The notes below the pieces were generated by a model. That model saw only the letters and a list, made by a program, of their open reading frames with translations, had not been told where the DNA came from and made no database searches. Position numbers and translations under genes: made by a program. Below are positions 1,566 through 13,930 of a stretch of DNA of 13,982 bases, one piece after another (position 1 is the first letter of the stretch; the number at the start of each line of letters is the position of its first letter). Source of the stretch: an uncultured Erysipelotrichaceae bacterium (lineage in GTDB: Bacteria > Bacillota_I > Bacilli_A > Erysipelotrichales > Coprobacillaceae); the NCBI GenBank assembly GCA_900544435.1, contig UQVG01000021.1, forward strand, positions 1-13,982. The letters run 5' to 3'.

Positions 1566-1582
1566 GAATTTCCCCTCTTTTT

Positions 1583-2941
1583 CTATTTATAACCATATCC
1601 ATAATGGCGTTCTTCCTCTTTAAAGATAGATTTCTGTGCTTGACTAATAATAGTACCACTAATTTGAGGTAAATGACTATTTAACTCTTCTAAAGCATCT
1701 AAAATATTATAAACACTTGCAAAATCTTGTTTAATAACAATGAAAGAACTATCACAATAACGACTAATAATCATTGCATCTTCTAATAAATATAAAGGTG
1801 GAACATCTAAAATAACAAATTCATAATCTTTTTTAAGTTGTTCAATCAATTCCCCTAATCTTTCTTTTGATAACATTTCTGTTGATTCATCAAAAGCTTT
1901 TACACCATAAATAATATCTAAAGGATAATCTTGATAACTATTCAAGATTTCTTCATAACAATAATCACCCTTTAAATATTCTCCAATATCACCACAAATT
2001 TGATCCTCTTTTAAAATATGATAAACACTTGGATTTCTTAAATCCAAATCAACTAAAGCAGTTTTATAACCCTTTTGTGCTAAACTAATAGCACTATTAA
2101 CAGCTACTGTTGATTTACCTTCATTAGGTAAAGTACTTGTAAACATAAAGACTTGTCGATCATGGTTATTCTTTTCTTGTTCTAATTTTAAACGAATATT
2201 AGAAAAAGCATGTTGAAAAGAATATTGGATACGTGGGTTTGATAATAATAAATATTGATTTTTTCTTTTTTTATTTGTTTTAATATAAGGTATTTTAGTG
2301 ATGTTATGAAGATGTAATTCTTTTTTAACATCTTCACTTTCTAAAATTGTTTTACGCGCTGTCATTAAAATAAAGACAATTCCTAAATCAATAATTATTC
2401 CAATAGCAAATCCTATCACTCCATCTTTTAAATAATCAGGATAAGCATCTGGCTTACTTGCTTGTTCTGGAGTATCAATAATGGCGATATTAATATCACT
2501 CATTGAATAATCTGTAACTTGTTTATAGTTATTTAAAATACAGTTAATAATATCATATGATAGTTTAGGATCTTGGCTAACAACCTTTAAAACAGCTAAA
2601 TTCGTATCATTAAAACGATTTAAACTGATACTTACAGGAAAGTCTGTTAAACCTAAGTTTGTCTTCACGACATCTTGCATCATGCTACCACAAAGTAAAC
2701 CACTAAATGAAGAAAATAAACTATCTCCATCATCACTGACTTCAAAGATATTATCTTGATCTTGTTCATAAACGACAAAGACTGATTGAGAGGTATAAGT
2801 TGTTTTAAAGAACAAGAATGTTTTAGCAAGATTTAAAACAGTTGTACAAACAACAATAATAATCAACCATTTTTTAACTCTTGAAACTGTACGATAAAAA
2901 CGATTGAAATATTGTGTTAAATCAATTTTATTATCTTCCAT
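1583..2941 (-). CDS. Wzc-like fusion: chain-length (Wzz) domain plus BY-kinase, copy 2
   Basis: This 452-residue protein is likely a bacterial tyrosine kinase fused to a polysaccharide co-polymerase domain, controlling polymer length and export at the membrane. The first membrane helix is at about 23-43, an extracellular Wzz-like segment follows to about 172, and the second helix is at about 173-193. The cytoplasmic kinase domain carries Walker A STLPNEGKST (269-278), Walker A' ALVDLDLRNP (295-304) and Walker B FVILDVPP (375-382). The tail HYGYGY (446-451) is a short tyrosine cluster, the usual autophosphorylation site. In most Gram-positives these two parts are separate proteins (CpsC/CpsD, YwqC/YwqD); here they are one chain, as in Gram-negative Wzc. 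The ATG overlaps the stop of the upstream paralogue by one base (TAATG) and has a GGGAGG site, so translation is probably coupled. Confidence 0.9.
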   Translation of the reverse strand: MEDNKIDLTQYFNRFYRTVSRVKKWLIIIVVCTTVLNLAKTFLFFKTTYTSQSVFVVYEQDQDNIFEVSDDGDSLFSSFSGLLCGSMMQDVVKTNLGLTDFPVSISLNRFNDTNLAVLKVVSQDPKLSYDIINCILNNYKQVTDYSMSDINIAIIDTPEQASKPDAYPDYLKDGVIGFAIGIIIDLGIVFILMTARKTILESEDVKKELHLHNITKIPYIKTNKKRKNQYLLLSNPRIQYSFQHAFSNIRLKLEQEKNNHDRQVFMFTSTLPNEGKSTVAVNSAISLAQKGYKTALVDLDLRNPSVYHILKEDQICGDIGEYLKGDYCYEEILNSYQDYPLDIIYGVKAFDESTEMLSKERLGELIEQLKKDYEFVILDVPPLYLLEDAMIISRYCDSSFIVIKQDFASVYNILDALEELNSHLPQISGTIISQAQKSIFKEEERHYGYGYK

Positions 2942-4317
2942 TATCTTACCTCCCTTTTACGATTATAGTGGTTATAACCATAACGATAACCATAAACCAT
3001 ACTTCCTTGGTTCATTTCATAAATACTTGCATTATAAATACATCCAATTAAATTATTCTTAGCTTGAACAAGACGACTAATAACTTCATTAATATGAGAA
3101 ATCGTTGCTTCATTTTGTTTAACTACTAAAAATGAAGCATCTACTAAACGATTGATCACTAATGGTTCATCAAGTCCTAAAGTTGGAGCAACATCTATAA
3201 TAATATAATCAAACTGACTTTTAGCTTCTTTAATTAATTGTGCTAATTGTGTTTCTAAGACTTTTTCATCTAAATTTAAATCTTGATCTGCACATAATAC
3301 AGATAATTGATAATTTTCTAAGAAGTTTACTTGGCTTTGCCAAGTAGCTTCTTTACTAAAGTAACGATTGATCGTTGTATCTTTAGTTATTGAAAAAATC
3401 TTATGCACCGCTGGTTTCTTTAAGTCACCATCAATTAATAATACTTTATAATGACTTCTAGCAAGTGATAACGCTAAGTTAGCAGCTACTGTTGATTTCC
3501 CTTCGTTTTCAACAGTACTTGTAATCATAATGGTTTGATAACCATGTTTTTTAGCTGATAATTCAAATCTGTTTCTTAATTTTTTAATGGCTTCTTTATA
3601 ATAGAAACTTGTTGTAAGTGATGTCATTAAGACAGCAGTTTTACGACGACGCATTTTCTTTCTTTCTCTTGGAATTTTCGCAAATAAACGACAATCCAAC
3701 ATTTTTTCAATATTACTGGCTTTTTTGATGTCTTGTCTAAAATAGACAATGAATCCAATTAAGACGAGTAATAGAATACCACAATATAGAACACCTGATC
3801 TAAAGTTTCTTACGTGGCTATTTAAAGCGATTGGTGATTCATTTAAGCTAATATCTTGTAAAATATTTAATTCATATGTCAAATGATATTTTTCACCATT
3901 GTTTTGATACCAGTCTTTAATACATTTTAAAGAATAGTAAGCTTCTTTTTTAGTAGGAGCAATGACTTGAATTGTGACAATGTTTTGTCCACTTTGACTT
4001 ACAATTTGACAATTCATGTTAACTGTTTCTAGATTTAATTTACTTTTAATTTCATTTTTAACGACTTGTCCGTTAAAAATGTATTGTAATGTTTTTGTAT
4101 AGGTTTCTGCTTGTTCTAATTGACTATACGTATTTTGACTTGATTTTAAGGCTGCTTGCATAGAAGCCATGTATTGAGGTTGATAGGTTAGCGTTTTAAA
4201 AATATCAAAACCAATCCCACTGATGACTAAACATAAAGCAAGCAAACCGATTTTTTTGATGATATAAGAAATCATCAAAGAAATCTGTAAAACAAGAGCA
4301 TTATTTTTACTATTCAT
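2941..4317 (-). CDS. Wzc-like fusion: chain-length (Wzz) domain plus BY-kinase, copy 1
   Basis: This 458-residue paralogue of the next gene has the same order of parts: membrane helix about 18-40, extracellular coiled/Wzz-like region about 45-165, second helix about 174-193, kinase domain from about 235. Walker A is STVENEGKST (267-276), Walker A' LIDGDLKKP (294-302) and Walker B IIIDVAP (372-378). The C-terminal tail holds five tyrosines in ten residues (Y442, Y444, Y446, Y448, Y451), typical of BY-kinase autophosphorylation clusters, which the CpsB-type phosphatase upstream would reverse. I chose the ATG at 4317 rather than the GTG at 4341: AGGAGG (4329-4324) lies 6 nt before this ATG. With this start the gene overlaps the upstream stop codon by 8 nt. 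Two tandem kinases may form a mixed oligomer or act on different steps; sequence alone does not decide. Confidence 0.9.
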   Translation of the reverse strand: MNSKNNALVLQISLMISYIIKKIGLLALCLVISGIGFDIFKTLTYQPQYMASMQAALKSSQNTYSQLEQAETYTKTLQYIFNGQVVKNEIKSKLNLETVNMNCQIVSQSGQNIVTIQVIAPTKKEAYYSLKCIKDWYQNNGEKYHLTYELNILQDISLNESPIALNSHVRNFRSGVLYCGILLLVLIGFIVYFRQDIKKASNIEKMLDCRLFAKIPRERKKMRRRKTAVLMTSLTTSFYYKEAIKKLRNRFELSAKKHGYQTIMITSTVENEGKSTVAANLALSLARSHYKVLLIDGDLKKPAVHKIFSITKDTTINRYFSKEATWQSQVNFLENYQLSVLCADQDLNLDEKVLETQLAQLIKEAKSQFDYIIIDVAPTLGLDEPLVINRLVDASFLVVKQNEATISHINEVISRLVQAKNNLIGCIYNASIYEMNQGSMVYGYRYGYNHYNRKREVR

Positions 4318-5134
4318 GGCTACCCTCCTCAACAACGACAACTAATTTTGTAACACCAATTTCACCATTTTCTTCAAGACGATAAATAAATTCATAAACA
4401 CCTGGTTTTGTTGGATCATAGTTATTACTTACTTTAACATTTTTAATTAAGCTTGTTTCTGACATACCCATTAATTCAATATTTTCAATATAATCTAATG
4501 GTCTAATTTTTTGTCCTACTTGAGCTTTGATCATATAATCAGATAAAGTAATTTGAATATTGTTCATCGCTGGTAAAATAGTCACATTTGTTGTTAAAGT
4601 AGATTTAGTTCCACAGCTATCAACAACTGAATAAGTAACAGCAAAATCTTCACCTTTATAATCTGCTTTATCAATTGAAATCTTTGAACTGATATCTCCA
4701 TCAACACCACTTGTTGCTTGAACATAGTCTTTTAATGAATCAGTTGATTCTAGATAATAAATACATAATGGTTTAGTAATCTTTATTTCTGGAGCTGTAT
4801 AATCTGTATATTTTAACTGACGTGTTGCTCTAGCAATATGGTCATCACTATCTAATACTGCATACGTAATGGTACGCATTTTTTGATCATCGAAAGGTGA
4901 AATACTTTCGATATAGACGTTACTTGTGATGTTACCATCTTCGATATCAATTGCACTGACACCGTTTAATAGACTGTCTTCTTTATCGTTGACACTTACT
5001 TGTAAAGGAGCTTGACTTACGGTAATGACAGGATCATGACCATCATCTTTTATTCTACTTTCTAGAAATAGAAACCCTCCATAGAACATCAATAAAAGAA
5101 TGATGAAAAAGATATATTTTCCATGTTTTTTCAC
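4310..5134 (-). CDS. Membrane-anchored extracellular protein with Ig-like (DUF5011-type) repeats
   Basis: The product has 274 residues. A single N-terminal membrane helix (about 7-26) is followed by an extracellular region of two to three beta-sandwich repeats. The motifs DIEDGNITSNV (63-73) and GVDGDISSKI (143-152), each followed by a Y-x-V-x-D-type strand, are the hallmark of DUF5011/HYR-like bacterial Ig domains. A third repeat (about 192-270, ending in a PGVYEFIYRL-type strand) lacks the acidic motif. Its start is GTG (5134), overlapping the TGA of the phosphatase gene by 4 nt (GTGA), with a GGGGG site 8 nt upstream; no better ATG exists. It has no sortase motif. Lying between the phosphatase and the kinases, it may be an accessory scaffold or ligand-sensing partner of the polysaccharide machinery, but its exact role is unknown. 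Confidence 0.8.
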   Translation of the reverse strand: MKKHGKYIFFIILLLMFYGGFLFLESRIKDDGHDPVITVSQAPLQVSVNDKEDSLLNGVSAIDIEDGNITSNVYIESISPFDDQKMRTITYAVLDSDDHIARATRQLKYTDYTAPEIKITKPLCIYYLESTDSLKDYVQATSGVDGDISSKISIDKADYKGEDFAVTYSVVDSCGTKSTLTTNVTILPAMNNIQITLSDYMIKAQVGQKIRPLDYIENIELMGMSETSLIKNVKVSNNYDPTKPGVYEFIYRLEENGEIGVTKLVVVVEEGSHE

Positions 5135-5865
5135 TTTGTTAACCCCCTAATATCTTTATTTTCTAACATCTTTGCTGGATTATTTTTAAAAATATCCCTG
5201 ACATATTCATGACCATAATGGTCTTCAATATAACAATAATCCTCATACATTAAAGCGTGACGACGATTTAATGTATGAGCATCACTGCCTATAAAGCTAA
5301 TGTAATGATTTTCTAATAAATAGTGGATACATTCCTTCGCAAATGTACCATATTGTCCAAATAAACTTCCTCTATTCATTTGAAGCAAGGCTCCTTTTTC
5401 AATACATTGAAGAGGAAGTTTTCTAGAAGCTTGCATACATTCATATCTTTCAGGATGAGCAATAATTGGAATATAATTATTTTCAATCACTGTATCGATA
5501 GCTTCTAAAACTAAATCTTCTTGTACATCAAAGAAGAATTCCATTAAAAGATATTGCGTTTGATTGATTCTTGTAATATCTTCTAAATGTTTATAAAAAG
5601 AAGCCGTTGATGTGAATAAAAATTCACATCCTAAATAAAGTTTAATAGGAATTCCTTCATCTTGAACAATTTCTTGGAATTCATTAAATAATTCTTTGAT
5701 TTTTTTATAAGGATTAATAAAATCATAAGGATAAGCCAGATGAGGTGTTAACACCATTTCATCTGTACCATCTTGATATGCTTTTTCTAACATCAATAAT
5801 GATTCATTGACAGATTGAAAGCCATCATCTACCATTGGTAAAATATGTGTATGTATATCAATCAT
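5131..5865 (-). CDS. CpsB/YwqE-type PHP-fold protein tyrosine phosphatase
   Basis: This 244-residue metal-dependent phosphatase is of the kind that dephosphorylates BY-kinases and so controls capsule or exopolysaccharide synthesis in the cytoplasm. All PHP metal-site motifs are present: HTH (5-7), DDG (13-15), TPH (40-42), GCEF (79-82), MEF (108-110), AHPER (136-140) and SDAH (194-197). I chose the ATG at 5865: AGGAGG (5877-5872) sits 6 nt upstream, and MIDIHTHILP is the family's normal N-terminus. An in-frame start at 5913 would add 16 residues lying inside the ABC transporter gene. The stop of that gene (5876-5878) overlaps the ribosome site, so this gene is directly coupled to the exporter. 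A 13-bp perfect inverted repeat lies inside the gene at 5242-5279. Confidence 0.94.
   Translation of the reverse strand: MIDIHTHILPMVDDGFQSVNESLLMLEKAYQDGTDEMVLTPHLAYPYDFINPYKKIKELFNEFQEIVQDEGIPIKLYLGCEFLFTSTASFYKHLEDITRINQTQYLLMEFFFDVQEDLVLEAIDTVIENNYIPIIAHPERYECMQASRKLPLQCIEKGALLQMNRGSLFGQYGTFAKECIHYLLENHYISFIGSDAHTLNRRHALMYEDYCYIEDHYGHEYVRDIFKNNPAKMLENKDIRGLTK
5242..5279. repeat. Perfect 13-bp inverted repeat inside the cpsB-like gene
   Basis: CTCATACATTAAA (5242-5254) and TTTAATGTATGAG (5267-5279) are exact reverse complements separated by 12 nt. It lies in codons for the region just after the SDAH motif of the phosphatase. No U-tract follows on either strand, so it does not look like a terminator. 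Confidence 0.85.
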
Positions 5866-5875
5866 CTTTTTCCTC

Positions 5876-7630
5876 CTAAAAATCCATTGCCATTTGAGCA
5901 GACTCTTCTTCATCTAATAATGTTAAATGTGTATCCATGACACGATAAACTCTTTGACACATATTTAACACACTTGGACGATGGGTTGTGACAATACATG
6001 TTTTATGAGGATGATTCTTCACGATATTATTTAAAACCCTACGTTCTGTTCTTACATCTAAAGCACTTGTTGCTTCATCTAATAATAATATTGGTGCATC
6101 TCTTAATATAGCTCTTGCAATCGCTATTCTTTGAGATTGACCTTCAGATAAGCCTTTCCCTCTTGTGCCTATTTCAGTATATATGCCTTTATCTAATCTT
6201 TCAACAAATTCATAAGCACAGGCTGATTTTAAAGCTTGAATAATTTCTTCATCGGTTGCATCTTCTTTAACCATTCTTAAATTATCAGCAATAGTTCCTG
6301 AAAAGATCGTATTTCCTTGAGGCACATAAGCAAATAAATGACGTGTAGAAGCATCTAACGTATACTTTTTATTTTGATAATCCACTAAACAAGCATGTCC
6401 CATGCTTGGTGTAATTAATCCTAAAAATAAACGAATCATGGTTGTCTTTCCTTCACCACTAGGACCTACTAAAGCTACAATTTCACCATGTTTTGCTTCC
6501 ATTGAAGAAGAAACTAATACTTGTTTATTTTCTACATAAGAGAAATAAACATTTTCTAATTCAATTGAAAAACCATGATCTTTGATTTGATTTAAATAAT
6601 CACTTCTTTGAATATTTGTTTCTTCTTTAGGTAAAGAAATGATTTCAATCAATCTTTTAGCTGAAATCGTTGAAGAAATCGTTGAAGGAATAATGCCTAC
6701 TAAAGAACTAAAAGCACTCGACATACGTGTAGACTGTTGTAAAAACAACGTCATTTCTCCATAATTAATAACACCACTCCATAAACGATAAACAGCCCAT
6801 CCAAAGAAACTAAATTGAATAACCATTCCTACTAAAGACAAAATCGTGTTTGTTTTGATACTAAACATATTATAATCAAGGTTAACAACTTTATATTTTT
6901 CTTGAAAACCTTTAAGTTTTCTAGAAAACAAATCAACTAAACCAAAAGATTTAATCGAATCAATATTACTAAAAGTTTCCGTTTGAAATGACATCATTTC
7001 ACTATTCATTTCTTTAACCTTTAAATTATATTCTCTCATTCTAGACATCAATACCTTAGAAGAAACTAACATAATAGGCGCATTAATTAACGTTAAAACC
7101 ATCATTGTTGGATCATAATAAAGAATCAAACACAATGTAGCAACAAAATTAAACGTATTAATAATTAAATTAGGAACCCAACCAATAGCTGAAGAAGCAA
7201 CAGTTCCAACATCTCCTCCAAAACGATTCAATAAATCACCACTATGAAAAGAAGACAAATCTAACCAATTCACTTGAATAATCTTATCAAAAATATCTGC
7301 TTGAATCTCATTTTGAATCCTAATATTGATCTTCAAAGTAATTCTAGACATTACCTGATTAAACAACAAACTAAACAATGACATTGAAACCATTAAAACA
7401 GCCATTCCTAATGCTCTGCTTTCTTGTTTCCCTGTAACAATATTAATTAATTCTTTACTTGCTACTGAACTAACTAAAGTCATGATTGTTGAAAAAACAC
7501 CAAGGAATGTATAAAAGACAATCTCTTTTTTATATTTCTTTCCATAGGAAAACATCCATTTAAACTCTTCCCACATTTCCTTGATACTACCATCTTTGAT
7601 CTTTTCAATAATCATCTTCAATGATTCCAC
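5876..7630 (-). CDS. ABC exporter (fused membrane and ATPase domains), probable peptide exporter
   Basis: This 584-residue half-transporter would act as a homodimer to pump a substrate out of the cell. The membrane domain covers about 36-325 with six predicted helices (first at about 36-57). The ATPase domain has Walker A GPSGEGKT (389-396), Q-loop VPQGN (436-440), signature LSEGQ (494-498, with E for the usual G), Walker B ILLLDEA (514-520) and switch H550. There is no N-terminal C39 peptidase domain, so leader removal must be done by another protein, plausibly the S26-type peptidase just upstream. The start is GTG (7630) with AGGTGA 5 nt upstream; an ATG at 7615 is the alternative. The gene starts 5 nt after the peptidase stop. 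Position next to the radical SAM and peptidase genes suggests the modified precursor is the cargo; a lipid or glycan substrate is the alternative, since the next genes are polysaccharide-related. Confidence 0.9.
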   Translation of the reverse strand: MESLKMIIEKIKDGSIKEMWEEFKWMFSYGKKYKKEIVFYTFLGVFSTIMTLVSSVASKELINIVTGKQESRALGMAVLMVSMSLFSLLFNQVMSRITLKINIRIQNEIQADIFDKIIQVNWLDLSSFHSGDLLNRFGGDVGTVASSAIGWVPNLIINTFNFVATLCLILYYDPTMMVLTLINAPIMLVSSKVLMSRMREYNLKVKEMNSEMMSFQTETFSNIDSIKSFGLVDLFSRKLKGFQEKYKVVNLDYNMFSIKTNTILSLVGMVIQFSFFGWAVYRLWSGVINYGEMTLFLQQSTRMSSAFSSLVGIIPSTISSTISAKRLIEIISLPKEETNIQRSDYLNQIKDHGFSIELENVYFSYVENKQVLVSSSMEAKHGEIVALVGPSGEGKTTMIRLFLGLITPSMGHACLVDYQNKKYTLDASTRHLFAYVPQGNTIFSGTIADNLRMVKEDATDEEIIQALKSACAYEFVERLDKGIYTEIGTRGKGLSEGQSQRIAIARAILRDAPILLLDEATSALDVRTERRVLNNIVKNHPHKTCIVTTHRPSVLNMCQRVYRVMDTHLTLLDEEESAQMAMDF

Positions 7631-7635
7631 TTACA

Positions 7636-8061
7636 TCACCTCAATCCATATAACTTAATAATCATATAACGACAAGGAATAATCCTAATCCACACATAAT
7701 AAAAGAAATTCCACCAAAAATCACCAGGTTTAATCTCTTTCCCTTTTCTTTTAACCTTATAAACAATCGCAAAGATTTGTTCTCTTTTAATAGGACCTTC
7801 AATATCTACTTGATTATCACCTACAAAATAATAATCATCACCATCTACCTTATAAATACGATGCAACACATAAGCCCCATTACTCCTTTGAAAAAAACAA
7901 ATATCTCCTTTTTTCAATTCCTTATCAATCTTTCTAAAATAAACAATATCTCTTTGATGAATCAAAAACGGAGCCATCGAACTACCAACAACTACCATAC
8001 TAGCCTCATCACCATTTAAAACAACCTCTTTTAAAATAGAAACATATTCTCTAGTATTCAT
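7636..8061 (-). CDS. S24/S26-type signal-peptidase-like serine peptidase (Ser/His type)
   Basis: The product has 141 residues. From the third of three consecutive ATGs (8061) it shows the signal peptidase I boxes: V-x-G-S-S-M-A-P with likely nucleophile S28, KKGDICFF (50-57), YVLHRI (64-69) with His at 67 where bacterial type I enzymes have Lys, and VGDNQVD (80-86) with D82. The His form is typical of SipW/Sec11-like (ER-type) enzymes. A hydrophobic tail (about 115-138) may associate with the membrane. Three in-frame ATGs exist (8067, 8064, 8061). GGAG lies 1, 4 and 7 nt before them, so I favour 8061, though 8067 is possible. The gene overlaps the end of the radical SAM gene by 11-17 nt. It is the best candidate for cutting the leader of the modified precursors; this is inference from context. 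Confidence 0.85.
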   Translation of the reverse strand: MNTREYVSILKEVVLNGDEASMVVVGSSMAPFLIHQRDIVYFRKIDKELKKGDICFFQRSNGAYVLHRIYKVDGDDYYFVGDNQVDIEGPIKREQIFAIVYKVKRKGKEIKPGDFWWNFFYYVWIRIIPCRYMIIKLYGLR

Positions 8062-9178
8062 CATCATTCTCCATCTTTTTCAATTCTTCCTTAAAATACT
8101 CAATTGTCCATTTCGTATACTCACATAAATATTCAGGTACACCTGAATATTTACCAGTTTCTAATAAAGAATAAGTAGGACATACATTACATACTTTCCT
8201 TAAAGTACATTGTTGACACTTTTCACTTGTATAAATTTCTTCTGTCTTACAAACAATTTCTTTCCAACAATCCTTAAAATCTTTTCCTGTTGTATCAACA
8301 CTAGGAGCACTCATAATCACACAAGGAATCATTTCTCCTCGCCAATTAATCGTATAAGAACATTTACCAGCCTTACACTTCATACCACCCTTTTTACTTT
8401 CTCCAACAGGTGTATTTTCAGCTAAATCAATATGTAACCTTGCACTTTCTTTAAAGACTTCATCGCCCATTTCCTTACGTAAAACTTGAATACGTACACG
8501 TGCAGCCTCTCTAGCATCTAAACGTCCTTTAAAATCAAAAGGACGACATCTTTCTCTTGTAGCAGGAGCCATATACGTATCCGCAAAAACAGGAATATCA
8601 AGCTCTTTTCCTAAATCAATCACTTGTTCATAACTTTCTACATTGTGTTTAGTAAGCGAACAATTGATCTTAACAGCTACATTTCTTTCCTTTAACTTCT
8701 TTAAAGCATTCCCTGCTTTTTCATAACCTTTATAATGACATAACTTTATATAGCCTTCTTCATGATGGCTATATAAAGTTATATTAATTCTTCGTGGTTT
8801 ATGTTGACTAAAGAACTCTATCCACTCATCATTCATCAAAGTTCCATTACTATTAACAGTAACAACCATCCCCATATTTAATAACTCTAAATACAGTTCT
8901 TTAAACCAAGGATACAACAAAGGTTCTCCACCCGTTAATAAAACAAACAAAACACCGGCATCCTTCATCTCCCTAGCTAACTCTAACCATCTCTCTAAAC
9001 TTAACATCTTTCCTTGATTATCCATCTCTTCTCTAGATAATCTTACATAACACATATCACAATTCATATTGCACATCGGTGTAAGCTCTAATACACCATA
9101 AATCGGTTCTTTACGTGATTCAGCCCACATAAACAACTTCTGTTCAATACTACTTCCAAATTCAATATCATTTTCCAT
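8051..9178 (-). CDS. Radical SAM/SPASM peptide maturase
   Basis: The product has 375 residues. The radical SAM core has the cluster motif C36-x3-C40-x2-C43 and GGEP (83-86) for SAM binding. The C-terminal SPASM domain is cysteine-rich: C268 then G281-x4-C286, then C321-x2-C324-x5-C330-x2-C333 and C352, enough for two auxiliary Fe-S clusters. Enzymes of this type install crosslinks (thioether or carbon-carbon) in ribosomal peptides. There is no fused PqqD/RRE domain at the N-terminus, so substrate recognition should rely on the two separate PqqD-like proteins encoded upstream. The start ATG has GAGGTGA about 6 nt upstream. It lies downstream of precursor 2 after a spacer of about 96 bp with possible attenuator hairpins. 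The modification it makes cannot be named from sequence. Two long perfect inverted repeats (8126-8153, 8740-8782) lie inside the gene. Confidence 0.93.
   Translation of the reverse strand: MENDIEFGSSIEQKLFMWAESRKEPIYGVLELTPMCNMNCDMCYVRLSREEMDNQGKMLSLERWLELAREMKDAGVLFVLLTGGEPLLYPWFKELYLELLNMGMVVTVNSNGTLMNDEWIEFFSQHKPRRINITLYSHHEEGYIKLCHYKGYEKAGNALKKLKERNVAVKINCSLTKHNVESYEQVIDLGKELDIPVFADTYMAPATRERCRPFDFKGRLDAREAARVRIQVLRKEMGDEVFKESARLHIDLAENTPVGESKKGGMKCKAGKCSYTINWRGEMIPCVIMSAPSVDTTGKDFKDCWKEIVCKTEEIYTSEKCQQCTLRKVCNVCPTYSLLETGKYSGVPEYLCEYTKWTIEYFKEELKKMENDDEY
8126..8153. repeat. 28-bp palindrome inside the radical SAM gene
   Basis: TAAATATTCAGGT (8126-8138) and ACCTGAATATTTA (8141-8153) are exact reverse complements around a 2-nt centre (AC). 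It falls in the codons for KYSGVPEYL near the C-terminus of the maturase. There is no U-tract on either side. Confidence 0.85.
8740..8782. repeat. Perfect 16-bp inverted repeat inside the radical SAM gene
   Basis: ATAACTTTATATAGCC (8740-8755) and GGCTATATAAAGTTAT (8767-8782) are exact reverse complements with an 11-nt loop. It codes for part of the SAM barrel (TLYSHHEEGYIKLCH). It is the longest intragenic hairpin found by eye, comparable in stem length with the two terminators, but no U-tract follows on the minus strand. Confidence 0.88.
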
Positions 9179-9199
9179 ATTTTCACCTCTATCTATCTA

Positions 9200-9226
9200 T
9201 TAAAAAGGCTTGGAGGAAACACCGAC
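9200..9226 (-). repeat. Element R3 (inverted copy of a 22-27 nt repeat)
   Basis: This copy carries TTGGAGGAAACAC on the + strand, whereas R1 and R2 carry that motif on the minus strand. Over the 22-nt core (9205-9226) it matches R1 at 20 positions and R2 at 18. It lies 48 nt past the stop of precursor 2 and 21 nt before the maturase start. With R2 it forms an inverted pair around the block PqqD-2 plus precursor 2. Confidence 0.75.
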
Positions 9227-9254
9227 CCCCATTAAAATTGAATGAATTTTTAAT
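9200..9254 (-). promoter_or_regulatory. Possible attenuator between precursor 2 and the maturase
   Basis: On the minus strand, an A/T hairpin (about 9254-9231, nine pairs with one bulged base) is followed by TGGGGG...CCTCCA (about 9230-9211, six pairs including one G-T) and then AAGCCTTTTTAAT. The second stem is short and the T-run is offset, so termination would be partial at best. A partial stop here would give more precursor than enzyme, a common arrangement in peptide operons. This is inferred from shape only. Confidence 0.3.
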
Positions 9255-9274
9255 AACTTAACTTAAAACTAAAA

Positions 9275-9702
9275 CTATGAACGGTTTGGATGATTTGGTA
9301 CATTTGCAGTAACAAGTCCTTGATGGTGCCAAACTCTGCCACCACTAGCACTTGTTGTCCAATAGATGTAGTCACCAACTTTTACACTACTAACAGATTT
9401 TGTAGTACGATAACTACTATCTGTATAGATTGTACAATTTAATCGACCTAACCCATCTGTAGCTACTTCTACCATACGATCAGCTGTTCCATTATTATCA
9501 TCGTCATAAATGACTTGATTTCCAGCTAATCCACAGTGAGCACTCGCATGAGATTCATCTTTATGTCCAGGCCAAGTTGATTCAACTTTATTAGCATCAG
9601 TGACATTACAACCTACACCCCAGCAAGATGATACATATTCATTAGGAGTAAATTCTTCTAATGTACTTTTGGTGATACCCATGTCTTCTTTGCAGTATTC
9701 AT
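9275..9702 (-). CDS. RiPP precursor-like protein 2, apparent -1 frameshift in the leader
   Basis: The uninterrupted frame 9682-9275 gives 135 residues beginning MGITKSTLEEFTPNEYVSSC. That ATG has only a weak ribosome site. An ATG at 9702, with GGGGAG about 9 nt upstream, starts MNTAKKTWVSPKVH and stops at TAG (9660-9658). Joining the frames at the AAAA run in CCAAAAGT gives a leader ...WVSPKSTLEEFTPNEYVSSC that matches precursor 1 (FTANEFISTC). One lost A would explain it; so would programmed -1 slippage or a sequencing error. After the leader, the long region has cysteines at 20, 25, 50 and 83 (numbered from 9682), a C-W-G-V-G-C start, and is rich in Gly, Asp, Asn, Ser and Thr, ending NRS. 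No homologue family can be named. PqqD-2 lies 22 nt upstream and the maturase downstream, so it is likely a maturase substrate. Confidence 0.7.
9658..9702 (-). other. Short leader reading frame in front of precursor 2
   Basis: This frame has 14 codons (MNTAKKTWVSPKVH) followed by TAG, with a ribosome site GGGGAG at 9717-9712. The K-K-x-W-x-x-P-K composition resembles the basic start of precursor 1 (MRKYKKPVLNV). It overlaps the body frame by 25 nt (9682-9658) and is offset by one base, so it reads as the detached N-terminus of precursor 2 and not as a separate gene. Confidence 0.6.
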
Positions 9703-9724
9703 ATTTACTCTCTCCCCTATTTTT

Positions 9725-10075
9725 CTATAAACCTAACTTCAAACTTTCTAAAACAAAGTGATAAATATCTTTTACAATACAATCATCTACATCATCGTAT
9801 TGTTCTTTTGCAGACAATACAACTTCATAGATGGTATGTGGTTGTTGAAACTGTTGCCAGATAAAATAAAACGTTTCATTCAAAGATATCATCCCATTGA
9901 TGGAAGATACACTATCCCCTGTGGGGATAAGTAAATATTCTCCTGCTACTTCACGTAGCAGAAAGTTTTCATTAACTTTATATTTTTGTTTTTCTTTCGA
10001 AAGTTCATTTGTTAATTCGGTTGTAGAAATATCTTCTATAGCCAAATCATTAATCATTGGACTATGATTATCCAT
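9725..10075 (-). CDS. PqqD-like peptide-binding protein 2
   Basis: This 116-residue protein of the PqqD/RRE fold binds precursor leaders and presents them to modifying enzymes. An N-terminal extension of about 30 polar residues is followed by the domain: NFLLREVAGEYLLIP (37-51) and SSINGMISLNETFYFIW (57-73). These line up with PqqD-1 (GFITREIAGEYMLVP and NGIIELNE), showing the two are related but clearly diverged. The ATG at 10075 has AGAGG 5 nt upstream. It sits 22 nt before the start of precursor 2, which suggests one PqqD per precursor. Two GC-richer hairpins occur in the gene: TATCCCC/GGGGATA (9913-9929) and CTGCTAC/GTAGCAG (9943-9961). Confidence 0.85.
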   Translation of the reverse strand: MDNHSPMINDLAIEDISTTELTNELSKEKQKYKVNENFLLREVAGEYLLIPTGDSVSSINGMISLNETFYFIWQQFQQPHTIYEVVLSAKEQYDDVDDCIVKDIYHFVLESLKLGL

Positions 10076-10126
10076 ATAAACCTCTTTTCACAAACATCTA
10101 TTCATTAAAAAAACTACATAATAGGA

Positions 10127-10153
10127 GTTAGTATTTCCTCCAAACCTTTTTAA
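10127..10153 (-). repeat. Element R2 (copy of a 22-27 nt repeat)
   Basis: The minus strand reads TTAAAAAGGTTTGGAGGAAA and then TACTAAC. The core matches R1 at 20 of 22 positions. It begins 9 nt after the stop of precursor 1 and precedes PqqD-2. It contains an SD-like GGAGG, but no start codon follows at a suitable distance. GGAG (10124-10127) can pair with CTCC (10138-10141). Confidence 0.75.
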
Positions 10154-10161
10154 AACAATAA

Positions 10162-10575
10162 CTAAGATTTATTCCCTTGAGTTATTTTTATATTTTCTTT
10201 AAGAGCAGTTGTACAATGATATCCTGTAGAGTTTGAATACCACGTAAGAACATTTGTAACTTTATTATTACTTGGATTAACATAGTAGCCTTGTGCGAAT
10301 GTTTCACCCACTTTAACAAAATGCTCTTCACCACATGGATGATAACTTCCAGTAGCGTATTTATCTGCAGAAACCCAATCCCATCCATCCAATGAAGGGC
10401 TTCGTTGCAATCCATCTTTTCCATTAGTTTCTAAATATACATTTCCATATCTACCCGAAACACCTGCATCACATTTAAATACATAATATTTTTCCTCAGT
10501 ATCACTACATGTTGAAATAAATTCATTTGCAGTAAATTGTTCTACATTAAGAACTGGTTTTTTATATTTTCTCAT
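10162..10575 (-). CDS. RiPP precursor-like protein 1
   Basis: This 137-residue protein resembles no enzyme family I recognise. It begins with a basic leader MRKYKKPVLNVEQFTANEF and then ISTC (20-23); the motif F-T-x-N-E-[FY]-[IV]-S-[ST]-C is shared with precursor 2. The remaining 114 residues are hydrophilic and aromatic (many Tyr, Trp, Gly, Asn) with cysteines at 23, 35, 81 and 121, and end GNKS. There is no signal peptide, membrane helix or Gly-Gly cleavage site. Four cysteines in both precursors and the nearby SPASM enzyme suggest modified cysteines, but no target residue can be identified. The start ATG has AAGGAGGG about 6 nt upstream, one of the strongest sites in the window, fitting a highly made substrate. 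It is flanked by repeats R1 and R2. Confidence 0.72.
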   Translation of the reverse strand: MRKYKKPVLNVEQFTANEFISTCSDTEEKYYVFKCDAGVSGRYGNVYLETNGKDGLQRSPSLDGWDWVSADKYATGSYHPCGEEHFVKVGETFAQGYYVNPSNNKVTNVLTWYSNSTGYHCTTALKENIKITQGNKS

Positions 10576-10631
10576 CTCTTTCCCTCCTTAAAATCCTTAT
10601 AAATAATAATTCTTTCAATAATAACTACTTT

Positions 10632-10666
10632 GTCAGTGTTTCCTCCAAACCTTCTTATGTTTGGAG
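10632..10666 (-). repeat. Element R1 (copy of a 22-27 nt repeat) with hairpin
   Basis: The core is 10632-10653 (minus strand AAGGTTTGGAGGAAACACTG and then AC). In addition, CTCCAAAC (10643-10650) and GTTTGGAG (10659-10666) form an 8-bp stem with an 8-nt loop. It starts a few bases past the PqqD-1 stop. There is no U-tract after it, so it is more likely an mRNA-processing, stability or regulatory structure than a terminator. Confidence 0.7.
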
Positions 10667-10672
10667 AATTTG

Positions 10673-11005
10673 TTATGTGTTTGTTTGTTCGTTAAGTATA
10701 AATATAATTTGGTTTTTAAAACCTGTCTCTAAGAATTCTTCGATATCTTCTGTGATATCTTGTCCTTCTGTATCAAATTCTTTATTTACTTCTTCTATAA
10801 GCTGTTTGATTGTTTTTGGTTCTTTTAATAATTCAAATAGAAAAAGTGATAATTCATTAAGTTCAATAATACCATTAAATTCTGGTAAATCTGTTCCATC
10901 ATTTAAATGAACAGTTTCTAAATTACCAGGAACTAACATATATTCTCCTGCTATTTCTCTTGTAATAAATCCTTGTCTAGCTACAAATCTCATATTCTCA
11001 TCCAC
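10673..11005 (-). CDS. PqqD-like peptide-binding protein 1
   Basis: This 110-residue protein is of PqqD/RRE type, with the diagnostic strand-turn GFITREIAGEYMLVP (12-26), then EFNGIIELNE (about 42-51) and a helical C-terminal half rich in Glu/Lys. The start is GTG at 11005 with GGAGGTGA 5 nt upstream; the preceding TAA of the kinase-like gene is directly adjacent, so translation is coupled. An internal ATG at 10993 would remove only four residues and has no better ribosome site. It is likely the leader-recognition partner for precursor 1, the next gene. Confidence 0.87.
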   Translation of the reverse strand: MDENMRFVARQGFITREIAGEYMLVPGNLETVHLNDGTDLPEFNGIIELNELSLFLFELLKEPKTIKQLIEEVNKEFDTEGQDITEDIEEFLETGFKNQIIFILNEQTNT

Positions 11006-11845
11006 TTACTTCACCTCCCTTAAATAATCATCTAAGCAGTTAACTGCTTCTTCACTAATCGTACAACTTAAGTGTACTATTGGTACTTCACTTATTAATT
11101 GATCTATAAACTCAAAACTTTGATTAACATAATCTTGATTATGGAAATTAACTGTAATTTCTTTAAGCAATCTTTTAGTTTTTACGATATATGTTGGATT
11201 AGTTGCAACATTTGTTGGTCCTTGATCCAACATTACTATCGCTTTTATTGGATAAGCCTTATTGTGGCATATCTTCGATGAGCCACATACTGGCCATCCT
11301 TTAGCGTAGAATCCATCATCTTCTTTAACAAGCAACGATCTATCACCATTAATAATTTCTACATTTCTATATTTTTTCCAAAGATCAGCTTGCGTACTTT
11401 TTCCTACACCACTCGGTGCAGTAAAAAGTATTGCTTCTCCTTTATCTACAATATAAGCACTATGTAAAATATAGTGATGATGTTGATACATTCTTCTTTC
11501 TAATAGAAATAATGAAGTAAAACAAGTGTCAACTTGTAAGTAATCAATATAATCTTTATTAAAGTAGATGTTTGTTTGGTGATCATCTATTTCTTTGCAT
11601 AAAGCATAGATATTTGTATCACCTGGTAAAATTAAATATCTTGTTTCTAAGTGATTATCGCTAACTATCTTAATCGTTGGTTTATTAACGAGTAATTGCT
11701 GATTTGGCATATCAATACGATCTACAAATTGAAATGTATAGCGATAATCACCTTGTTTGTCTGTTTTAAATTTTTGAAAGTTTATAGGAATATGTTTAGA
11801 ATCTATTCCTATAATATCAAAGATAAAATGTCCTATTTTGTACAT
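11006..11845 (-). CDS. HPr-kinase-like ATPase of peptide-modification clusters
   Basis: The product has 279 residues. The C-terminal half has the P-loop APSGVGKST (about 143-151) and INGDRSLL (about 165-172), in the arrangement of HPr kinase/phosphorylase-like proteins (PEPCK-related fold) often found in lasso and PqqD-containing clusters. There, some homologues phosphorylate the precursor. The N-terminal half (to about 120) is a less conserved beta-rich region. I chose the ATG at 11845 (AGGTGA 5 nt upstream) over the GTG at 11854 that directly follows the stop of the nucleotidyltransferase gene. If it does phosphorylate the precursors, their many Ser/Thr residues, including the C-terminal Ser of both (GNKS and NRS), are candidate sites. 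That link is inference; the lasso-peptide kinases modify a C-terminal Ser. Confidence 0.82.
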   Translation of the reverse strand: MYKIGHFIFDIIGIDSKHIPINFQKFKTDKQGDYRYTFQFVDRIDMPNQQLLVNKPTIKIVSDNHLETRYLILPGDTNIYALCKEIDDHQTNIYFNKDYIDYLQVDTCFTSLFLLERRMYQHHHYILHSAYIVDKGEAILFTAPSGVGKSTQADLWKKYRNVEIINGDRSLLVKEDDGFYAKGWPVCGSSKICHNKAYPIKAIVMLDQGPTNVATNPTYIVKTKRLLKEITVNFHNQDYVNQSFEFIDQLISEVPIVHLSCTISEEAVNCLDDYLREVK

Positions 11846-11854
11846 ATTTGTCAC

Positions 11855-13018
11855 CTACTTCATTACTTTATATTTCTTTAAGAGATTGACTCTTTGTTGT
11901 CCTATTTCTATTGTTTGTTTACCATCGTTTAGTTTATTTGTTTTTTGATATTGAATGATTCTAGAAATGTAGGCAAAAGGTAATAAATAGGGATATTTAT
12001 TTAAATATTCATATTTTGCCTGCATTTCTTTAAGTGTTGGAAATAAGCTTTTAAATACATTTGTTTTGCCTTTATCAAAAGCATTTAATGTGATCGTTGA
12101 TGAATGTATTCTTTCTTTACTTGTTTGTCCAAAGATACCAGCATTCACAATATCATCTAGTAAATCTTGATAATCAAGATGATCTATTTTTAATTGATTG
12201 ATATTAAAATCAAAATAATCATGAGCCATTGAAAATAGATTTAAAATAAGTTCATCTACTTGAAAATATTTGAGAATCTCAAATATTTTCTTCCAATCAA
12301 TATCATCTTGATATGTTTCACTATAAACAACAATATCTAATACTTGTCTAATTCCTGCACCTGAATGTAAGAAATGTTTAACAAAGTGAAGAATTAAAAA
12401 TAATAAATGATAATCATGATCTAAAGAAATAAAATCTACACCTTGTATAGAATGTATTGTTGTATGTTCAAAAGCATTATCAAATAAAGATTGATATTTA
12501 CCATAAGCTTTTGAATCTTTAGAGAATAATTGTGTATGCATTTCTATTGATAAACCTGATGAAAAATCTATAAATGTTGTTACATCTTCACTTTCATGAG
12601 CTATTTGGAAATGATCTTCTAAGAGTATATCTTTTACTGTTTGAAGATCTTTTTGTTTAATATAGAGATCTTCATCATTAGATTGTCTATTTTCACCTTG
12701 TGGATATAATGATCGACAAATAATGCCTTTGACTACTATGACATCTATTCCTTTATTTCTTAACTTTTGATAGATGTCTAGTAGTCTAAATGTTTTTCTT
12801 GTTTGAAAAGCATTTATTTTAATAGCTTCTGATCTCCATTGTTGTTTTAAATCATTTGGAAAATCAGGAAAATCATAAATTTGATTATAAATCAAAGCTG
12901 AAACTTGATGTTGATTGGCAAGTTGATACAGCTTTTGATAATCAAGTTGACGATATGTTGACTTTTGATTTAATCTTGCATCTTTTAATAAAGTTAACAG
13001 TTCTTTATCCATCATCAT
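11855..13018 (-). CDS. Nucleotidyltransferase-fold family protein (NTP_transf_5-like)
   Basis: The product has 387 residues. The motifs VVKGIICRSLYPQ (95-107), R111-x-S-N-D-E-D-L (111-118; the paired acids are the expected metal ligands), EMH (159-161) and HFVKHFLHSGAGIRQVLDI (211-229) are those of the uncharacterised nucleotidyltransferase family that accompanies HPr-kinase-like and PqqD genes in lasso and other RiPP clusters. Its substrate in such clusters is not established. Three ATGs open the frame (13018, 13015, 13012), and GGGGG lies 2, 5 and 8 nt before them, so 13015 or 13012 may be the true start. The first ATG overlaps the metallophosphoesterase stop as ATGA. A perfect 13-bp inverted repeat lies at 12262-12290. 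Confidence 0.83.
   Translation of the reverse strand: MMMDKELLTLLKDARLNQKSTYRQLDYQKLYQLANQHQVSALIYNQIYDFPDFPNDLKQQWRSEAIKINAFQTRKTFRLLDIYQKLRNKGIDVIVVKGIICRSLYPQGENRQSNDEDLYIKQKDLQTVKDILLEDHFQIAHESEDVTTFIDFSSGLSIEMHTQLFSKDSKAYGKYQSLFDNAFEHTTIHSIQGVDFISLDHDYHLLFLILHFVKHFLHSGAGIRQVLDIVVYSETYQDDIDWKKIFEILKYFQVDELILNLFSMAHDYFDFNINQLKIDHLDYQDLLDDIVNAGIFGQTSKERIHSSTITLNAFDKGKTNVFKSLFPTLKEMQAKYEYLNKYPYLLPFAYISRIIQYQKTNKLNDGKQTIEIGQQRVNLLKKYKVMK
12262..12290. repeat. Perfect 13-bp inverted repeat inside the nucleotidyltransferase gene
   Basis: GAAAATATTTGAG (12262-12274) and CTCAAATATTTTC (12278-12290) are exact reverse complements around a 3-nt centre. It codes for KKIFEILKYF. No U-tract or stop codon is nearby. 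Confidence 0.85.
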
Positions 13019-13860
13019 TTCCCCCTCAATGTAATCGATACGATCTCACTAGGATTATTCCACCTAGGTAATAATTCTCCACTACTACTTATCCCTCTTG
13101 TAATAATAAGATTTGTATCCTTTATATGATATTTTCCATAATCATATTTAGGAAACCATCCCTGTTCAGGAGCATACAAACCACCAAAATAAGGCAAGAT
13201 GACTTGTCCTCCATGAACATGACCACTTAATATCATATCAATGTCCCAGTCAATAGCGTTACCATAGATAAAACTATCTGGTCTATGGGACATCATAATT
13301 TGATAGTTATCTGTTTGTTTAAATTCATTTAAGAATTGATAAGTTGAACTATCATGCATAGATTCTTTAGAGATGTTTCCATCTCCTGTACTAAATGCAT
13401 AATCATATAATCCTCCAATTCTTATCTTATTTTTATGAACAGTTATATCTACATAATCTTTATCCAAAACATTAATCTTTAAAGCTTTCACTTGTTTTAT
13501 AAATTCATCACCATGATCATTTTCTATTTCATGATTACCGATACTCATATATGTATCGGTAATCTTAGAAAGTGATTTTAAGAAGTTTAGAATTGATGTA
13601 TCATCTGTTGTTTGATTATCAATAATATCACCAACACAAAGAATTACATCAGGATGTAATTCTTTGATTTGTTTGATGATTTTATCTTTAATACGACAAT
13701 GATAATCATGAACATCTGCAATCATGGCTATTTTAACTTCTTGATCTATTTTCGTATTTATTATCTCATAGTTTTTAACATCTATCGAATAATAAGATAT
13801 ATAAGTAAAATAGAAGATAATAAGGCATAAACTTAAAACTGTCATGATTACTTTTTTCAT
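13015..13860 (-). CDS. Membrane-anchored calcineurin-like metallophosphoesterase (YkuE-like)
   Basis: The product has 281 residues. An N-terminal signal anchor (about 4-24) is followed by a phosphoesterase domain with all metal motifs: ADVHD (48-52), GDIID (77-81), GNHE (108-111), SH (191-192) and GHVHGG (213-218). Related membrane-bound enzymes act on phospholipid-type or nucleotide substrates; the substrate here is unknown. I chose the ATG at 13860, with AAGGAG about 6 nt upstream. A longer frame from TTG 13893 would overlap the proposed promoter -10 downstream region and has no ribosome site. It is the first gene after the upstream terminator, and its TGA overlaps the next ATG, so it is part of the same operon although its link to peptide or polysaccharide work is not obvious. 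Two long inverted repeats lie inside (13533-13564, 13637-13666). Confidence 0.9.
   Translation of the reverse strand: MKKVIMTVLSLCLIIFYFTYISYYSIDVKNYEIINTKIDQEVKIAMIADVHDYHCRIKDKIIKQIKELHPDVILCVGDIIDNQTTDDTSILNFLKSLSKITDTYMSIGNHEIENDHGDEFIKQVKALKINVLDKDYVDITVHKNKIRIGGLYDYAFSTGDGNISKESMHDSSTYQFLNEFKQTDNYQIMMSHRPDSFIYGNAIDWDIDMILSGHVHGGQVILPYFGGLYAPEQGWFPKYDYGKYHIKDTNLIITRGISSSGELLPRWNNPSEIVSITLRGK
13533..13564. repeat. Perfect 12-bp inverted repeat inside the metallophosphoesterase gene
   Basis: GATTACCGATAC (13533-13544) and GTATCGGTAATC (13553-13564) are exact reverse complements with an 8-nt loop. It overlaps the codons of the catalytic GNHE motif region (DTYMSIGN). Confidence 0.85.
13637..13666. 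repeat. 30-bp palindrome inside the metallophosphoesterase gene
   Basis: CAAAGAATTACATC (13637-13650) and GATGTAATTCTTTG (13653-13666) are exact reverse complements around a 2-nt centre. It lies just before the GDIID motif and codes for KELHPDVILC. Confidence 0.85.
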
Positions 13861-13882
13861 ATAAACTCCTTTCTTTTTTGTA

Positions 13883-13930
13883 GGTAGTGTCAAAAATCTA
13901 TATTAAATAGCGTAAATACACTACCCTCAA
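13883..13930 (-). promoter_or_regulatory. Candidate operon promoter with a flanking inverted repeat (possible operator)
   Basis: On the minus strand, TTGAGG (13930-13925) and TTTAAT (13907-13902) are spaced 17 nt apart, near the sigma-A consensus. An exact 8-bp inverted repeat, ACACTACC (13918-13925) and GGTAGTGT (13883-13890), brackets the -10: one half lies just inside the -35 and the other falls just past the expected start site. Such placement would let a dimeric repressor or an unwinding regulator control the operon. No regulator gene is in the window, so the link is untested. Confidence 0.5.

Follow-up and report, generated by a model that had tools for sequence, protein, structure and literature searches.

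Gene content of the locus

We analysed a stretch of 13,982 nucleotides (contig UQVG01000021.1 of an uncultured Erysipelotrichaceae bacterium; hereafter the window) that carries a putative cluster for ribosomally synthesized and post-translationally modified peptides (RiPPs) with two unusually large precursors, named PrecA and PrecB here. A first-pass annotation, made from the letters alone, had pointed to this cluster, and the genes, their order and their strand were confirmed by the list of open reading frames (ORFs) and by Pfam and NCBIfam. All cluster genes form a single run on the minus strand and are given below from its start (RRE, RiPP recognition element; SAM, S-adenosylmethionine; pLDDT, predicted local distance difference test from AlphaFold2).

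13015..13893, minus strand: metallophosphoesterase, first gene of the run (PF00149, E 5.4e-14)
11855..13018, minus strand: nucleotidyltransferase-fold protein, candidate for acting on phosphoserine (PF14907, E 3.1e-47)
11006..11854, minus strand: HprK-like kinase, candidate kinase of the C-terminal Ser (TIGR04352, E 9.4e-5; TIGR04249 ScmC, E 1.8e-4; both weak, under the cut-offs)
10673..11005, minus strand: PqqD1, an RRE (PF05402, E 3.8e-10)
10162..10575, minus strand: PrecA, 137 residues, leader Y-x-x-P and FTANEFISTC, four-Cys body, C-terminal Ser (pLDDT 79.4)
9725..10075, minus strand: PqqD2, the second RRE (PF05402, E 3.2e-9)
9668..9702, minus strand: start of the PrecB leader, in a frame differing from that of the body (three-frame translation; comparison with the relative P0033)
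9275..9682, minus strand: PrecB body frame, 135 residues as called, leader end FTPNEYVSSC, four Cys, C-terminal Ser (pLDDT 80.8)
8051..9178, minus strand: radical SAM/SPASM maturase (PF04055, E 1.9e-24; best PDB match SkfB 6efn, E 5.4e-15)
7636..8067, minus strand: archaeal-type S26 signal peptidase, candidate leader peptidase (TIGR02228, E 1.5e-8, below the model's curated cut-off)
5876..7630, minus strand: MsbA-like ABC exporter (TIGR02204, E 1.1e-77; TIGR02203, E 8.6e-76; PF00664; PF00005)

In alignments with relatives, K97, G98, D115 and D117 of the PF14907 protein were identical in 7 of 7 rows, H131, K152 and D171 of the HprK-like kinase in 24 of 24, and S30, H69 and D84 of the S26 peptidase in 10 of 10. 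The SPASM profile matched the radical SAM enzyme weakly (E 0.45), yet its Cys pattern is visible. A relative of the metallophosphoesterase also stands beside the clusters at loci L004, L007, L090 and L093, and its membership in the pathway is uncertain. Neither a lasso macrolactam cyclase (asparagine-synthetase-like) nor a B2 peptidase was found among the 14 window proteins scanned with Pfam, a set that does not include the protein at 2941-4341. This supports the earlier remark that two companions of lasso-type clusters, the kinase and the nucleotidyltransferase, occur here without a lasso cyclase. An Rfam scan of the window gave no match.

Leaders, bodies and the C-terminal serine

PrecA and PrecB have four Cys residues each and share the leader motif FT[AP]NE[FY][IV]S[ST]C, just as the first-pass annotation had noticed. 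Neither belongs to a Pfam or NCBIfam family, and in a Pfam scan of 27 rows (26 PrecA-type proteins or relatives, and PrecB) no family occurred in more than one member. AlphaFold2 predicted beta-rich folded domains of more than 100 residues for the bodies (pLDDT 80.8 for PrecB and 79.4 for PrecA), in support of the earlier view that the substrates are small folded proteins. A fold search with these bodies returned nothing at Foldseek E<=0.001 and only low Z values in VIA-align, with no clear PDB match. We found 32 relatives of PrecA and 363 of PrecB (E<=10), the best 120 of the 363 being used for all PrecB counts; these relatives, together with the recurrence of the module in other genomes, place the observation beyond chance.

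The C-terminal residue was Ser in 32 of 32 PrecA relatives and in 119 of 120 PrecB relatives, the remaining one ending in Cys. The same residue ended 35 of the 37 leader-bearing ORFs of the collected loci, compared with 14 of the 268 other ORFs there, as well as 14 of the 15 sister-cluster ORFs judged genuine (see below), all in counts whose members are not independent of one another. Ser also closes most of the further, unlike bodies. At the other end, the leader motif [YWF]xxP was present throughout (32/32 PrecA, 120/120 PrecB and 37/37 locus ORFs), and past [YW]xxP the leader reads F-x(3)-E-[YF]-[VI]-[AS]-x-C. By eye, the leaders have no hydrophobic stretch resembling a signal peptide. The leader would be cut at [YF][VI][AS]/xC, where the slash marks the predicted site, one residue ahead of the first Cys. 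We placed it there because the residue before the cut is A or S in 32/32 PrecA relatives and 37/37 locus ORFs and A, S or T in 120/120 PrecB relatives, while the next one varies (A, T, L, V, S); for this reason a cut directly before the Cys was dropped.

We then compared the 20-residue leaders of 25 precursors from 10 genomes, some of them closely related; the window (broken leader), the PrecB of L011 (missed by the pattern) and loci beyond the chosen list lay outside this test. Leaders from one genome but in front of different bodies (17 pairs) had 68% identity; the figure was 54% for the 182 pairs between genomes and 58% for the 94 pairs that share a body type but not a genome, and none of 5,000 permutations reached the observed within-genome difference. 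Because leaders are more alike within a genome than across genomes for the same body, we read these data as suggesting that leaders track the local machine and bodies get exchanged.

Radical SAM clades largely follow body type. In a tree of 45 radical SAM enzymes, 17 of them unlabelled, the nine labelled as PrecB-type fall on one side of a branch (support 96/85) among the labelled rows; the 13 PrecA-type enzymes need three changes, and L045 (one PrecA-type) lies beside the PrecB group. All body labels together need four changes on this tree, versus 12.7 when shuffled, a result that 0 of 200 shuffles reached. PrecB genes mostly lie between a PqqD gene and a radical SAM gene and encode a strongly conserved body; PrecA bodies are hypervariable. 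The window has one radical SAM enzyme, which falls among the PrecA-type (support 92/91, not starred).

In the window itself the PrecB leader is frameshifted. Three-frame translation revealed that an ATG at 9702, preceded by what looks by eye like a ribosome-binding site, opens a frame with a W-x-x-P leader that is out of register with the PrecB body. The called start at 9682 falls within the leader and is probably not the native one. In P0033, a PrecB relative with 90% identity, motif and body lie in one frame. Since the leader is frameshifted and the sole radical SAM enzyme groups with the PrecA-type, the PrecB of the window may be decaying; alternatively, the assembly or base sequence may be wrong. 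The first-pass annotation, whose basic observation holds, had overlooked this frameshift, the invariant C-terminal Ser and the exopolysaccharide setting described below.

Recurrence of the module and its exopolysaccharide setting

Scanning genome contigs with the PrecB alignment gave 13 loci, several of them on short contigs, with a PqqD gene in 11, a radical SAM gene in 10, an HprK-like kinase in 8, an exporter in 5, a PF14907 gene in 4 and an S26 peptidase in 3. The first-pass annotation had asked whether precursor relatives always neighbour PqqD and a radical SAM enzyme; only one of the 13 loci (L002) lacked both, indicating that PrecB relatives are not widespread without these neighbours, though orphans exist. 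In the genome of L002 (G003), a different contig carries genes for a radical SAM enzyme, a kinase and an S26 peptidase. At L011 and L012, PqqD alone accompanies PrecB. L011 belongs to a Phocaeicola-labelled metagenome-assembled genome (MAG), G001, which carries the whole module and three PrecA genes on another contig; in G002, the genome of L012, a search at E<=1e-30 did not detect a radical SAM gene. At both loci (9514-10399 in each; two Bacteroides/Phocaeicola-labelled MAGs) the lone PqqD-PrecB pair lies downstream of a type III glutamine synthetase gene.

The module also recurs in the 4-kb loci and longer stretches that we fetched, mostly from Lachnospiraceae, once complete in a Bacteroidota-labelled MAG, and usually beside exopolysaccharide genes. 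The radical SAM protein of the window was searched against 397 genomes from the family to which G005 belongs (labelled Lachnospiraceae), and 13 matched at E<=1e-80. A search across the class (391 genomes, E<=1e-60) added little, with three matching genomes, two of which had already come up in the family sample. A sister-clade radical SAM protein matched 28 of the 397 genomes at E<=1e-60. Among these sister clusters, the leader pattern Y-x-x-P ... [IV]A-x-C picked out 20 same-strand ORFs, of which 15 were judged genuine precursors (about 80 to 150 residues) and five chance-like, none of the five ending in Ser. Neither the radical SAM enzyme nor PrecB had a relative in viral contigs, and in plasmids the radical SAM protein had matches only below 60% identity (96 records).

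Beside these radical SAM genes we found PrecA, PrecB and more bodies of unlike sequence that share the leader (L004 has two of them; L020, L048/L051, L054 and L093 have others), and L004 and L091 each represent a genome with several precursors. At L091:15086-16851 (G001), three consecutive PrecA genes with nearly equal leaders and unlike bodies have two radical SAM genes and two PqqD genes as neighbours. At L004:3401-18690, five precursors stand amid an integrase, Transposase_31 proteins and a UPF0236 protein, a possible route of body exchange. Other neighbours include a MalT-like LuxR-type regulator before the nucleotidyltransferase gene (L006:5802-8180 and L007:5753-8179; Pfam on the L006 copy), and large proteins of 1942 and 1880 residues directly after sister clusters (L089:7348-13176 and L090:4217-9859), the one at L090 with BNR sialidase-like and immunoglobulin (Ig)-like domains.

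In the window, the genes directly after the ABC exporter run in the same direction as the cluster:

126..5913, minus strand: exopolysaccharide genes, comprising the five below (PF19567, E 1.5e-61; PF03816, E 3.5e-36)
5131-5913, minus strand: CpsB/CapC
4310-5134, minus strand: Ig-like protein (PF16403, near the cut-off)
2941-4341, minus strand: Wzz/Wzc-type protein, assigned by similarity only
1583-2941, minus strand: Wzz/Wzc-type protein (PF13614 and PF02706, weak)
126-1565, minus strand: LytR-CpsA-Psr (LCP) protein

Wzc-like genes were present in the fetched DNA of 5 of the 13 PrecB loci. Ten cluster genomes yielded 31 Wzc-like matches in nine genomes and none in G007; for 26 of the 31, a radical SAM gene of the cluster was no more than 8 kb away, and the others were in G005 (2), G010 (2) and G011 (1). 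Five of six further stretches of our choosing also had Wzc-like genes, L094 being the one without. Because the genomes were picked for holding the cluster, these counts tell where the exopolysaccharide genes are located, not how often such loci contain the cluster.

Repeats were seen in the window and at L001. A 26-nt intergenic repeat has three copies in the window (9200-9234, 10119-10153 and 10632-10657), two in the same orientation and one inverted, a number equalled in 0 of 200 shuffles; a hairpin overlaps the copy at 10632, and 35-nt inverted arms (83%) bracket PqqD2-PrecB. Recombination via these repeats was considered and set aside, because the exact 18-nt core occurred in 0 of 94 other loci and no comparable element turned up when four relatives were scanned for repeats. 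At L001, two GC-rich copies resembling dispersed repeats (7945-8042 and 9247-9344; 85%) lie near the radical SAM and precursor genes.

Proposed pathway and comparison with known systems

Two known systems bear on the interpretation. Linear polyphosphorylated peptides (LPPs), made by the lpp cluster of Paenibacillus alginolyticus and published in May 2026, are described as products of capsular polysaccharide loci with an archaeal-type signal peptidase, a discrete RRE, an HprK-like kinase, a nucleoside triphosphate (NTP) transferase and an MsbA-like exporter (PMC13381572). Their precursors have 35-200 residues, number one to three per cluster and combine a constant N-terminus with a variable C-terminus; the kinase phosphorylates core Ser 3, and the signal peptidase LppS removes the leader, cutting after F-E-T with Phe at -3 (PMC13381572). 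In paeninodin, the HprK-like kinase PadeK phosphorylates the C-terminal Ser, and in pseudomycoidin PsmN is required for hexoses on phosphoserine (PMC9266682). The LPP paper gives the role of LPP and paeninodin products as unknown (PMC13381572).

On balance, we favour the reading that the cluster encodes a RiPP pathway for small folded proteins, in which a phosphorylation pathway like that of LPPs and paeninodin is joined by a radical SAM enzyme. The common leader, the unlike bodies and the presence of an RRE, a radical SAM enzyme, a peptidase and an exporter bear out the RiPP-type logic already seen by the first-pass annotation. In the proposed sequence, the RRE would bind the [YW]xxP leader, as the motif and homology to LppB suggest, and the radical SAM/SPASM enzyme would modify the body; Cys thioethers would be a guess only, and the Cys pairs could equally be disulfides or radical-SAM crosslinks. 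The HprK-like kinase may then phosphorylate the C-terminal Ser, a step proposed from the near-invariance of that residue and because HprK-like kinases do so in paeninodin-type lasso peptides. The PF14907 protein might add a sugar or nucleotide to the Ser phosphate. This is the weakest step, a guess modelled on pseudomycoidin, whose PsmN we take to be a PF14907 member. Phosphorylation of the C-terminal Ser with sugar transfer, as in paeninodin and pseudomycoidin, would best explain the two lasso companions. The S26 peptidase would cleave at [YF][VI][AS]/xC, leaving a Cys at position 2, and the MsbA-like exporter would release the product. Once outside, the product may, judging from the location of the genes, act together with the exopolysaccharide made by this locus, or upon it.

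Such a pathway would bring together two RiPP logics, modification of the body by a radical SAM enzyme and phosphorylation of the C-terminus by a kinase, in substrates as large as folded proteins, and would tie both to capsule-type loci of gut Lachnospiraceae. A leader compatible with several unlike bodies would also make the machine a candidate tool for protein modification. A bolder version, which we hold to be improbable, has the folded, radical-SAM-modified miniproteins carry a phosphorylated Ser at the C-terminus that the PF14907 enzyme caps, so linking them to the exopolysaccharide whose genes lie in this locus; the LCP transferase is one enzyme that could make the link. If true, the capsule would be decorated with swappable encoded proteins via a C-terminal phosphodiester, one leader and machine serving many bodies.

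Several observations speak against the phosphorylation pathway as we propose it. The assignment of the kinase is weak, combining weak family matches with conserved His, Lys and Asp. The LPP kinase uses core Ser 3 and not the C-terminus (PMC13381572), so the presence of an HprK-like kinase does not by itself settle the phosphosite, and PrecA of the window type likewise carries Ser at that core position. Another possibility is that the C-terminal Ser acts as a signal for sorting or for structure. In addition, the leader-bearing ORF of L054 closes with SV and a sister ORF of L063 with ST; at L008, the other exception among the 37, the ORF is broken in frame. Deletion of LppN, the LPP counterpart of the PF14907 protein, had no visible effect (PMC13381572). 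The orphan PrecB gene at L002, those at L011 and L012 with PqqD only, and, in the window, the frameshifted PrecB leader and the absence of a PrecB-type radical SAM enzyme are further points on this side.

The nearest alternative is a strict LPP pathway, in which the main modification is a phosphorylation near the leader-core junction, the radical SAM enzyme joined late in an accessory role and the C-terminal Ser has another function. It would share its peptidase, RRE, kinase, NTP-transferase and exporter set and its capsule setting with LPP clusters (PMC13381572), and PrecA of the window carries the required Ser. We nevertheless judge it unlikely: just 8 of 32 PrecA relatives, the window type included, and 0 of 120 PrecB relatives carry Ser at core position 3, the LPP leader consensus past YxxP is absent, and radical SAM genes adjoin the precursor, in clusters that were found via radical SAM or PrecB, so that clusters without these would be invisible to our sampling. 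Another alternative is a thioether RiPP of the sactipeptide or ranthipeptide kind that is secreted as an antimicrobial, with the kinase and nucleotidyltransferase serving self-protection or activation. It would fit the facts that SkfB is nearest by sequence in the PDB to the radical SAM/SPASM enzyme, that the Cys are conserved, that PrecA bodies are hypervariable and that one genome can hold several precursors (L004, L091). This account appears doubtful, as the bodies are predicted beta-rich domains of more than 100 residues, no immunity gene was recognised, the exopolysaccharide setting is near-constant, PrecB bodies are strongly conserved and the Cys pairs may be disulfides. Finally, the predicted folds and the orphan PrecB genes (L002, L011, L012) could mean that the "precursors" are ordinary secreted surface proteins and that PqqD and the radical SAM enzyme act on other targets. 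We regard this as very improbable in view of the RRE motif found in leaders throughout, the position of most PrecB genes between PqqD and radical SAM genes, the co-variation of leaders within genomes and of radical SAM clades with body type, and the lack, by eye, of a signal-peptide-like stretch.

Among known systems, the sactipeptide and ranthipeptide maturases SkfB, CteB and PapB are among the closest on the side of the radical SAM enzyme. Like them, the cluster has a radical SAM/SPASM enzyme beside a Cys-bearing precursor; unlike them, it has a separate RRE pair, a kinase, a nucleotidyltransferase, an S26 peptidase and predicted folded bodies of more than 100 residues, with thioethers that are conjectural. 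The SynChlorMet cassette (NCBIfam TIGR04248-04251) contains PqqD, an HprK-like protein and two radical SAM/SPASM proteins. Its ScmC, ScmD, ScmE and ScmF profiles matched proteins of the cluster weakly, with 21.0, 21.1, 67.4 and 48.2 bits against cut-offs of 125, 100, 400 and 400. A literature search, with most subscription papers lying outside its reach, found no system combining radical SAM, HprK and RRE. With the paeninodin and pseudomycoidin lasso peptides (PMC9266682), the cluster shares an HprK-like kinase with a C-terminal Ser, a nucleotidyltransferase, an RRE and an ABC exporter, but cyclase and B2 peptidase are not recognised here, the bodies are far larger and a radical SAM enzyme is present.

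The closest likeness is to LPPs. Without its radical SAM enzyme the gene set is the LPP set, and the wholly new product class suggested by the first-pass annotation is not borne out (PMC13381572). The archaeal-type signal peptidase LppS has its putative counterpart here (TIGR02228, E 1.5e-8, under the cut-off), as do the HprK-like kinase (weak matches), the NTP transferase, the MsbA-like exporter, the [Y/W]xxP leader motif and the capsule setting. For the discrete RRE, a profile of 22 cluster PqqDs matched LppB (9x8z chain B, E 6.8e-7) best in the PDB, practically tied with the lasso RREs PbaB1 (9x90, E 9.2e-7) and TbiB1 (E 2.5e-6); 9x8z and 9x90 are RRE-leader complexes of the LPP and paeninodin types. 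There are also differences. Of the full LPP leader YxxPxVLxHQxIxFETxxS only [YW]xxP is common, the C-terminal Ser and not core Ser 3 is conserved here, the bodies are large, predicted to be folded and Cys-rich, and the relatives are mostly Lachnospiraceae and not Bacilli. LPP clusters have no other primary modifying enzyme, and "radical SAM" and "SPASM" have 0 occurrences in the main text of that paper (PMC13381572), whereas one or more radical SAM/SPASM genes are present here. Because the leader motif, Ser 3 and the absence of another modifying enzyme do not agree with LPPs, we file the cluster as a putative radical-SAM variant of phosphorylated, RRE-dependent RiPPs.

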